From Thermosulfurimonas marina (GTDB lineage Bacteria; Desulfobacterota; Thermodesulfobacteria; Thermodesulfobacteriales; Thermodesulfobacteriaceae), in NCBI RefSeq assembly GCF_012317585.1, contig NZ_CP042909.1, positions 1,116,001-1,180,000 of the forward strand: a stretch of DNA of 64,000 bases. Direction: 5' to 3'. Below, piece after piece: positions 44,206-53,985 of this stretch; position 1 is the stretch's first letter; every line of letters begins with the position of its first letter. The notes beneath the pieces are model-generated. The model ran no database searches. It had not been told where the DNA came from and saw only the letters and a list, made by a program, of their open reading frames with translations. Made by a program: the position numbers and the translations under genes.

Positions 44206-45505
44206 TCAAAAAGTTCGACGAGTACTGTTGAAGGGGTCCACCGAACCGTGGAAATGGCAACAGCTGCAATTGATAGGGTTTCCCGAGTAATGGCAATTTC
44301 CGCAGCTTTGTCGAGGATAGTTAGTGTCTGGAAAATGATGAATCTCAGACCAGGCATTCCCTCCATTGTCGCCCGTGTGGCAACGCATGCAGAGCAGGCC
44401 TAGATCTTTGTTGCCATTAGTGGAAGAGATAGGAGAGCAATAACCTCCGCTGGAGGGGAGGGCTTCCAGAGCCGTAGCGGTGATCTCTGGGGAGATTTCT
44501 TCTCCGTTTACCGCAGGTCGCAGGAGGGTCACGTTGGGCGAGCCGTGGGGCTCATGGCAGTCTAGACAGGAGAGGACCTTGTTGTCTGTGGCGTTGCTGT
44601 AAGGACCTCTTAGAGAGAGGATCTCGTCCGCGGCCCCGAATCCGTGTTTTTCATTGCTCCAATCTATTTGTCGCAGATTTCGGCCTAAGGAAGTAGAATA
44701 TATAGTGTTCTGCGTGTTGTGGCAGTCGGTGCAGAAGGTGGGATAATCCGTGGTCTTGGAGGCCTGGTCCCCGGTGGAACCATCCGGTTCATAGGAGGAA
44801 GTGGAACCAAACCAGTAAGGGGCTTGGTAATTGCTAGTAGTGTTAGAAATAGTGGAGACAAACAGATTGCCGTGATTTGAAGGAAGAGAAAGGGCGCTCT
44901 GTGAGGTGTCTATTGTCCCGGGGGCGGTACTTCCTGATCTTCTTAGGTGTTTTTGTACCAGATGGGGATTATGACAGGCATCACAAGGGACGATAATTTT
45001 CAGGGGAGTGAAGGAGAGTAGAGTGCCCTTCTGACCTGTGACAAAAAAGGAGAACATCTTCGAGGTTGTGATAAGAAGTTAAATTAAATTGATCCAAGAG
45101 GGAGACAACAGTTTGGTTACTATATCCTCCAAAAGTGACACTATAGAGATAATTAGTAGGAGGACTTCCATTTTGGAGAGAACCGGTGGCGGCATGACAG
45201 AAAAAACAAAAACAGTCGGACTGATCGTAGGGGTTGGTGGTTTTAGCCGAGTTGAAGGCCCCGGCAAAGAGGAGATTTCCTCCAAGTCCGAGCGGATTGG
45301 GTTCACTTCCTCCAATACTGGCGTGCTGCTCATGACAATGCGCACAATTTCCCCTGGAGATACCGCTAAGCCCGCTCCTCTGGACTCCCGCAACAATATC
45401 CCCATGGATGGACTGGAGATAAGGTCCGCTCCATCCCTCTGTATATATTAAAATTGTCAAAAGTATCAGTAACCATTTCCACTTTTGACTAAATTTTCTT
45501 TTCAC
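44206..45505 (-). pseudogene. Octahaem c-type cytochrome, interrupted by a one-base frameshift in a T6 run
   Basis: Two overlapping frames (45505-44981 and 45057-44206) together encode one exported multihaem cytochrome. The first half has a signal peptide (WKWLLILLTILIYTEGWS) and haem motifs CAHCH and CFFCH. The second has CDACH, CTDCH, CLDCH, CMRCH, CGNCH and CSCCH, giving eight in all. Removing one T from the T6 run (45048-45043 on the minus strand) joins the frames into 432 residues and restores SYHNLEDV-LLFVTGQ...CDACHNPH, a typical stretch of such proteins. It may be a mutation, a sequencing error or a slippage site. The gene is clearly more AT-rich than its neighbours and has its own promoter. 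Likely role: periplasmic or surface electron transfer. Confidence 0.85.
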
Positions 45506-52074: not shown

Positions 52075-53913
52075 TCAAGAATTCTCTTCCTCGTCTTCTT
52101 CCTCCATCTTTAAAAGATCCTTGAAGCGGATATCCATGCCCACCACGCCCACCACTTCTTCATAGCGATCCCGGATGGGGGCCGAAACGGTGAGACACAG
52201 GGCCCCGGTGACCTTGGAGGTATAAAAATCCGAGACATAGACCCGCCCGGTCTTAAAGGGTTCCACGAACCAGGGCCGGTCGGAATAGTCCTCATCTTTG
52301 AGGAGGTGTTCGAAACGGCCCCGGTCCTCCACATGGGTGATGAGGGGGGTGATGCGGTGGCCTTCTTGGTTTACTACATAAATGAATTGGATATAGGGGT
52401 GCTCCTCCAGGAATTCCCGGAGTATGGGGACGATCTTTTCGGGGTCCAGGGAACGGATCTCCGGCCTTTCGGCCAGTTCCTCGGCCAGGCGGGAAAGGAG
52501 CTTTTCCGCCCGGGCCTTCAGACGGTCGAGATCCGAGACAAAAAGCTCGGGGATATACTTGCGCACCAGTTGCATCATCTCTTCGTTGGAGATGGAGGTG
52601 ATACGCCCGGCCTCGTATTGCTTGAGGATGTGCTTATAGATTTTGGCCACTCCGGGATGGCGCTTGTCGATACGGCGGTCGCCCTTGAGGTGGAAGTGGG
52701 TGTTGATCCAGTAGGCGATTCCCGCGGTGCCGCTCTTGTCGGTGATAATGATCCCGATGGGGCGCTTGAGGAGTTTCTTGGTGTCGAAGGGGTTGTAGAT
52801 CTCTTCGTTTTTGAGGAGGCCGTCGATGTGGATCCCGGCCCGGGTGGCGTTGAATTCCGAGCCCACGAAGGGCTGATTGGGCGGGATCTTCTCTCCCAGG
52901 ACCTCCCGATAGTAATTGGCAATGTCCGTGATTACCGTGGTATCTACCCCATGGTGGGTGCCCCGCAGGGCAATGTATTCAAAGATCATGGCCTCAAGCG
53001 GGGTGTTTCCGGTGCGCTCTCCGAAACCGAGGAGGGCGCAATTTACGGCCGCACAGCCGTAAAGCCAGGCCGCGGTCGCATTAATGACCACCTTATAAAA
53101 GTCGTTGTGCCCGTGCCATTCGAGGAGCTCTCCGGGCACTCCGGCTTCCTCGATCAGGGTCCTTACCAGCTTGGGGACGCTGCGCGGAAGGGCGGCTTCC
53201 GGGAAGGGTACTCCCAGCCCCAAGGTGTCACAGAGCCGGATCTTGATGTCTAGGCCCGACTCCTCCCGCAGTTTCATAAGTTCGATGGCGAAGGGCACCA
53301 CGAAGCCAAAGATGTCCGCCCGGGTTACGTCCTCAAAATGGCACCGGGGGACGATCCCCAGAGAAAGGGCCTCCTTAACGATGGCCAGGTAGTCTTCCAG
53401 GGCCTGGCGACGGTTTTTCTTGAGCTTGAGGAAGATGTGGTAGTCCGAGCACGAGGTAAGAATCCCGGTCTCCTTAAGGCCCATATCCCGGACCAGCTTG
53501 AGGTCTTCGGCCTTGGCCCGGATCCAGCCCGTAACCTCCGGATAGCGGTAGCCCAAGGCCAGACACTTTTCCACCGCTTCCCGATCCTTGGCCGTGTAGA
53601 GGAAAAACTCGCTCTGACGGATGACCCCGTTCGGTCCTCCCAGACGATGCATGAGCTTATAGAGGTCCACGATCTGTTGCACGGTGTAAGGGGGGCGGGC
53701 CTGCTGGCCGTCGCGGAAGGTGGTGTCGGTGATCCAGATCTCCCGGGCGGGATTGGGGGGTATATAACGGTGGTCAAATTCGATGTAAGGGACATCCGTA
53801 TAAGGGAAAATCTCCTTCATGAGATTGGGTTCTTCGGTGTCCTGGAGTTTATGCTGCCAGAACTTGGTGTGTACGTGCTCTAAGAGCCTCTTTTCCGGAT
53901 TCCATCTGGGCAT
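52075..53913 (-). CDS. Re-citrate-synthase-like DRE-TIM enzyme fused to a C-terminal Cache/PDC sensor domain
   Basis: A 612-residue protein from the ATG at 53913 (GAGGAGGT site). Residues ~58-330 form a DRE-TIM barrel: TTFRDGQQARPP with Arg67/Asp68, GPNGVIRQSEFFLY, TGILTSCSDYHIFLKL, PRCHFEDVTRAD and the metal-binding WHGHNDFYK (His267, His269). These blocks match the Re-face citrate synthases of Clostridium and Desulfovibrio relatives, which join acetyl-CoA and oxaloacetate. Such enzymes are normally about 450 residues. Residues ~466-600 add a Cache-like region: FIYVVNQEGHRIT, YSDRPWFVEPFKTGRVYVSDFY and VVGVVGMDIRF. Without a signal peptide the sensor must act in the cytoplasm, perhaps as an allosteric site for a carboxylate. 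A different acyl-transfer reaction cannot be excluded. Confidence 0.85.
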   Translation of the reverse strand: MPRWNPEKRLLEHVHTKFWQHKLQDTEEPNLMKEIFPYTDVPYIEFDHRYIPPNPAREIWITDTTFRDGQQARPPYTVQQIVDLYKLMHRLGGPNGVIRQSEFFLYTAKDREAVEKCLALGYRYPEVTGWIRAKAEDLKLVRDMGLKETGILTSCSDYHIFLKLKKNRRQALEDYLAIVKEALSLGIVPRCHFEDVTRADIFGFVVPFAIELMKLREESGLDIKIRLCDTLGLGVPFPEAALPRSVPKLVRTLIEEAGVPGELLEWHGHNDFYKVVINATAAWLYGCAAVNCALLGFGERTGNTPLEAMIFEYIALRGTHHGVDTTVITDIANYYREVLGEKIPPNQPFVGSEFNATRAGIHIDGLLKNEEIYNPFDTKKLLKRPIGIIITDKSGTAGIAYWINTHFHLKGDRRIDKRHPGVAKIYKHILKQYEAGRITSISNEEMMQLVRKYIPELFVSDLDRLKARAEKLLSRLAEELAERPEIRSLDPEKIVPILREFLEEHPYIQFIYVVNQEGHRITPLITHVEDRGRFEHLLKDEDYSDRPWFVEPFKTGRVYVSDFYTSKVTGALCLTVSAPIRDRYEEVVGVVGMDIRFKDLLKMEEEDEEENS

Positions 53914-53985
53914 GGCTACCTCCTCGTCCTGAAATGACCGCCTACAACTTAACACGGAAATTCTCCCCGGGCGACTTTTCTCCTC

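Follow-up and report, generated by a model that had tools for sequence, protein, structure and literature searches.

Why should a metabolic enzyme end in a domain that normally serves as a sensor? No extracellular sensor is commoner in bacteria than the Cache domain, yet one gene in the window (the whole stretch of 64,000 nucleotides analyzed here) joins a putative Re-citrate synthase and a single Cache/PDC domain in a soluble protein, P0001. An earlier note on this DNA had described the fusion at the correct coordinates but omitted the strand, which is the minus strand (Table 1). The fused anatomy it noticed is real, conserved, and functionally coherent. We favor the explanation that P0001 is a Re-citrate synthase under the control of a cytoplasmic, amino-acid-type Cache, a reading that we hold to be reasonably probable.

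Table 1. Features of the P0001 gene, with positions in the window
Feature	Position	Strand	Basis
CDS, putative Re-citrate-synthase/Cache fusion, 612 aa + stop	52075..53913	-	ORF + orthologues
Ribosome-binding-like GAGGAGGT upstream of the P0001 ATG	53918..53925	-	sequence
HMGL-like / DRE-TIM acyltransferase barrel, residues 60-333	52915..53736	-	Pfam PF00682 E 3e-30; Foldseek
FRDGQQ, residues 66-71, metal/substrate motif	53701..53718	-	invariant
RCHFEDVTRAD, residues 190-200, signature RxHxEDxTRAD	53314..53346	-	common to both Re-citrate synthase clades
HGHND, residues 267-271, metal-binding HxH	53101..53115	-	sequence motif
Post-barrel helical subdomain, residues 340-458; end point of short orthologues	52540..52896	-	short orthologues, AlphaFold
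Linker helix, residues 461-481	52471..52533	-	AlphaFold
Single Cache/PDC domain, residues 485-605	52099..52461	-	Pfam, AlphaFold, PDB fold match
Predicted ligand motif R546-x-W548-F549 ... Y564 ... D594	52132..52278	-	fused-orthologue conservation

The domain layout and the fold were both computed. The Re-citrate-synthase-like DRE-TIM barrel, which the earlier note had placed at residues ~58-330, coincides with an HMGL-like domain that carries FRDGQQ and HGHND, and its Foldseek matches are homocitrate and isopropylmalate synthases. The C-terminal part, in which YSDRPWF (residues 543-549) and VVGVVGMDIRF (residues 587-597) had suggested a Cache/PDC domain, exceeds the cut-offs of two Pfam models: MCP-like_PDC_1 (PF22673) at residues 496-600 (63.7 bits vs 27) and dCache_1 (PF02743; 49.4 bits vs 45), the latter matched over profile positions 34-155 of 240, that is, over its first, membrane-distal module alone. 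AlphaFold, whose models contain neither ligand nor oligomer, gave a mean pLDDT of 88 for full-length P0001 with 52 orthologues, and a pLDDT of 87.7 with a pTM of 0.82 for residues 456-612 alone. In structural comparisons (Foldseek/VIA), the domain best matches the sensor domain of KinD (Z 15.5), followed by CitA (Z 14.2, 2.7 A across 127 residues) and the chemoreceptors CtaA, PctC, and Tlp3 (Z about 13.4). Modeling of this part, which the earlier note had proposed, thus returns a Cache/PDC fold with a conserved predicted pocket; with both profiles above cut-off and fold scores up to Z 15.5, the domain belongs to the Cache/PDC superfamily and, as modeled, certainly has a Cache fold. Extracytoplasmic Cache domains typically, though not by definition, sit between membrane helices. 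Hydropathy reveals no such helix and no signal peptide in P0001, as had been claimed: the highest 19-residue mean (1.42) falls within the barrel, and the N-terminus does not rise above -0.26.

What the barrel makes can be approached through its relatives. Sequence comparison provides a strong case for assigning P0001 to the C. kluyveri/Syntrophus type of Re-citrate synthases; its activity and stereochemistry are what we infer. The barrel is 63.8% identical to that of the Kuenenia hertensis orthologue, a Re-citrate synthase candidate, and 68.3% identical to that of the orthologue in genome G408, taken as Syntrophus aciditrophicus, but only 25-27% identical to LeuA, CimA, and NifV of its own genome. 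In a barrel tree, P0001 groups with the Kuenenia and putative Syntrophus orthologues, with the paralogues and clade II outside (support 99). The RxHxEDxTRAD block, which may recognize the extra carboxylate of oxaloacetate, is present in 149 of the 152 orthologues, as well as in the clade II protein L160, and in none (0/3) of the genome's LeuA, CimA, and NifV. The connection to the C. kluyveri enzyme, a proven Re-citrate synthase, is indirect and runs through homologues: that of K. stuttgartiensis shares 55.1% identity with it (PMC8027424). The clade II gene (L160:1481-2848, minus strand), a Dehalococcoides/C. difficile-like Re-citrate synthase candidate, has an isocitrate-dehydrogenase-like gene as its neighbor; the genome, G440, is of Syntrophales type and carries a fused clade I gene as well.

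The rest of the genome points the same way. A profile search of the complete genome, which is a single contig of 1,763,258 bp, detected no Si-citrate synthase (PF00285), whereas the control search found matches in 13 of 14 genomes; aconitase (L165) and NADP-IDH (L168) are present, leaving a gap precisely at citrate synthase. PF00285 is also absent from ten other genomes bearing the fused gene, but some genomes with a fused or short orthologue additionally carry it, so that having the Cache does not clearly mark a sole citrate synthase. The superfamily acyltransferases of the genome are four, namely LeuA and CimA, both above their cut-offs, a NifV-like gene that adjoins nifH, and P0001; a fifth PF00682 match is weak. 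Could the barrel nonetheless make homocitrate, citramalate, or isopropylmalate? Its top NCBIfam equivalog is indeed nifV, but at 149 bits against a cut-off of 463, with all others far below, so P0001 qualifies as none of these synthases; the roles are filled by paralogues (L002, beside nifH, L003, and L004), and the missing Si-enzyme, the operons of orthologues with IDH and aconitase-family genes, and near relatives linked to a proven Re-citrate synthase make a different product very improbable. Rather, P0001 is very probably the organism's only citrate synthase, and of the Re-type.

No operon with TCA genes was found at the P0001 locus, where an MBL-fold hydrolase and RNase G/E lie downstream and an rRNA operon upstream. 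In other genomes the orthologue directly precedes NADP-IDH and/or aconitase-family genes (L062, L149, L031, L056, L064, L113); the aconitase-family neighbor is of the 'hydratase' type in L062 and L149 and, in L113, of a two-subunit type with an uncertain substrate. Fused Re-citrate synthase genes are paired with NADP-IDH, on the same strand and a few bases downstream, at L031:7138-8391 (+), L056:3930-5159 (-), and L062:7704-8852 (+). Many Desulfobacterota display a conserved neighborhood in which the fused gene adjoins aspS and hisS (aspS-like at 61 loci, hisS-like at 43; L028, L029, L034, L040-L050, and others). Elsewhere in the window (44206-45505, minus strand), a frameshift seems to have split a single multiheme cytochrome c gene: the ORFs at 44981-45505 and 44206-45057 overlap, differ in frame, and contain many CxxCH motifs.

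The pathway that such an enzyme would serve has been traced in a relative. Genome G032 (2,322,224 bp), which we take to be Thermodesulfatator indicus, encodes a fused orthologue 81% identical to P0001 and has no PF00285 match. By 13C labeling, T. indicus makes 2-oxoglutarate and glutamate via oxidative citrate synthesis, and it is said to hold a Re-citrate synthase homologue (PMC12743299). The genome paper on Thermosulfurimonas dismutans reported no citrate synthase gene (PMC4911364); the fused gene, present in most genomes sampled from the P0001 host's own family and order, is likely the missing enzyme of the T. dismutans group and would fill that gap.

How widespread is the fusion? At E <= 1e-60, an orthologue was found in 144 of 297 genomes of the phylum, nearly all full length, with four clear exceptions that stop at about residue 458. 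In one Syntrophales-type order, 96 of 155 genomes have an orthologue; intact matches are nearly all full length, and none of the 155 genomes yielded a clean barrel-only form. A scan of named genomes located fused forms in Thermodesulfobacteriota, Nitrospirota, Spirochaetota, Lentisphaerota, Omnitrophota, Fibrobacterota, Auribacterota, and Margulisiibacteriota, many of the genomes being metagenome bins, and short forms, which lack the Cache, in the anammox bacteria Kuenenia/Brocadia, in Clostridia (Caldicoprobacter, Lachnospiraceae), and in Paenibacillus. The search for the same fusion in relatives that the earlier note had called for is thereby answered: full-length fused orthologues, 52-93% identical, occur in more than 200 genomes, which disposes of a frameshift, an assembly artefact, or chance as the origin of the P0001 layout, and fused orthologues throughout the three scans show that P0001 is not unique. 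Judged from this distribution, the fusion is old and widespread. Since short and fused forms both exist, either an enzyme that was already complete gained the Cache at its end, or the Cache was lost from that end; the barrel tree requires 5 state changes, of which the starred branches force only 2, and its deep forks are weak, a result compatible with one origin of the fusion or with several.

This breadth bears on novelty. G408, presumably Syntrophus aciditrophicus SB, consists of one contig of 3,179,300 bp with exactly one orthologue, a 634-residue ORF at L158:5581-7485 whose Cache scores 45.7 bits against the Pfam PDC cut-off of 27; by length, the other three HMGL genes fit LeuA, a CimA-like enzyme, and a subunit of a carboxylase/decarboxylase, and the PF00285 search of this genome found no Si-citrate synthase. 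The S. aciditrophicus Re-citrate synthase was reportedly described by Kim et al. in 2013 (J Bacteriol 195:1689). Passages in two later papers likewise place its identification and characterization in 2013 (PMC12016533, PMC12743299). Because the sole orthologue in G408 is fused and the enzyme was characterized then, the layout would not be new to the bench: going by the gene, the purified Syntrophus enzyme almost certainly had a Cache already, and the fused layout was very probably already present in a CHARACTERISED enzyme. The suggestion that no described enzyme has this layout is therefore not supported: the layout is the standard one in Desulfobacterota and extends to at least seven other phyla, and the only possible Re-citrate synthase of the presumed S. 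aciditrophicus genome and the homologue in the presumed T. indicus genome are both fused. Word searches of the non-subscription literature returned no mention of a Cache on a Re-citrate synthase.

What, then, is the Cache for? Conservation, again computed, points to its pocket. W548 and D594 do not vary among the fused orthologues, 97% of which have R/K at position 546, and an aromatic residue is almost always found at 549 (F in P0001) and 564 (Y). These five motif columns have a mean entropy of 0.37, compared to 1.67 for the whole domain; of 100000 random column sets, 14 came out as low. Overall, the domain diverges more quickly than the barrel (mean pairwise identity 47% vs 68%), which, together with the short orthologues that do without it, would suit a mainly structural module for oligomerization or stability that has lost ligand binding. 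The preferential retention of pocket residues, two of them invariant over eight phyla, makes this reading improbable, and a ligand-binding regulatory role is likely.

The nature of the ligand is suggested by the dCache_1AA motif, [YFWL]xxxx[RK]xW[YFW]-x13-17-[YFW]-x27-34-D, in which Arg and Trp contact the carboxylate of the ligand and Tyr and Asp its amino group (PMC11237719). P0001 matches it except for the first aromatic, having Glu five residues before the Arg. Of 119 fused orthologues, which are not independent of each other, 113 contain the core motif, versus 11 of 5950 shuffles; the complete motif occurs in 6 of 119, and 106 of 119 have an aromatic residue or Leu three rather than five residues before the Arg. 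P0001 has one module, whereas dCache_1AA sensors have two. The missing aromatic and the single module count against an amino-acid ligand, and we do not class the P0001 Cache as dCache_1AA, although it may act like one.

The same enzyme could instead sense an organic acid, be it citrate, 2-oxoglutarate, oxaloacetate, or pyruvate, for product inhibition or feed-forward control. The nearest folds include KinD, which binds pyruvate, CitA (citrate), and DctB and DcuS (dicarboxylates), and R546 aligns with the loop bearing KinD R131. Yet KinD, which shares the Arg, has Ala at the position of D594, and a buried Asp, invariant along with W548, suits an ammonium group and disfavors a polyanion; furthermore, the basic cluster that CitA uses for citrate is presumably missing. 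We therefore regard an organic-acid sensor as unlikely, if still a serious contender. Since the motif core is kept and KinD lacks the Asp, the favored ligand is one that combines a carboxylate with an amino group, and an amino acid as the ligand class is moderately supported by these sequence features. The earlier note had envisaged feedback by a small carboxylate: control of the first TCA step endures as the likely role, but the invariance of Asp594 alongside Arg546 and Trp548 favors an amino acid over a small carboxylate.

We posit that P0001 is a cytoplasmic Re-citrate synthase that would condense acetyl-CoA and oxaloacetate to citrate and so provide the first step in the oxidative branch of a TCA cycle that is incomplete (citrate to isocitrate, 2-oxoglutarate, and glutamate). 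The Cache, carried on a helical linker after the full catalytic unit, would bind a small ligand in its PAS-like pocket, with the carboxylate of an amino acid held by R546/W548 and its amino group by Y564/D594, and the linker helix would relay binding to the catalytic part, an allosteric logic like that of the leucine-binding domain of LeuA. Glutamate, or a relative, may be the feedback ligand, the simplest guess for a pathway that runs through 2-oxoglutarate to glutamate; the sign of control is likewise inferred. The Cache would be dispensable for catalysis, since Cache-less orthologues exist and presumably work. We would give even chances to the broader proposition that a widespread class of citrate synthases, in Desulfobacterota and at least seven more phyla, is gated in the cytoplasm by a chemoreceptor-derived amino-acid Cache, an undescribed allosteric control of TCA entry.

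If true, a Cache would have been put to unusual new use in regulating an enzyme of central metabolism, and would provide a soluble, readily assayed Cache whose ligand could be read through enzyme kinetics; natural Cache-less orthologues would serve as controls. Should the S. aciditrophicus enzyme have the Cache, as its sequence says, regulation is testable at once with an already purified enzyme.

Among known systems, the nearest is the Re-citrate synthase of S. aciditrophicus (putatively that of G408), with a barrel 68% identical and a C-terminal Cache as in P0001. The Kuenenia, Brocadia, and Caldicoprobacter orthologues fall in the same barrel clade (about 60-65% identity) but, unlike P0001, end at about residue 460 without a Cache. 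The sensors of KinD, PctA, Tlp3, and CtaA share the fold and an R/K-x-W/F-[YF] loop with the P0001 Cache, and the amino-acid receptors among them (PctA, Tlp3, CtaA) also its GxD aspartate; these sensors, however, are extracytoplasmic, membrane-anchored, and mostly two-module, whereas P0001 carries one soluble module on an enzyme. A cytoplasmic Cache is in itself not unique to P0001. Soluble MCP-signaling proteins encoded at L161:490-1899 (+) and L162:2952-4541 (-) end in a Cache of the P0001 subtype (R-x-W-F ... D), and resemble cytoplasmic chemoreceptors with the sensor at the unusual end; YkuI, too, has a cytoplasmic C-terminal Cache of this subtype. Because the same subtype ends soluble MCP-signaling proteins in related genomes, the arrangement has both precedents and, in these proteins, a plausible donor, but in all three the Cache drives signaling domains, whereas in P0001 it sits on a metabolic enzyme. 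LeuA and LysS, which share the catalytic superfamily of P0001, are controlled by their end products through a C-terminal domain or, with lysine, at the active site. LeuA relies on a dimer domain of its own (a RAM domain in SaHCS, PDB 6ktq); in P0001, the effector domain would be the Cache.
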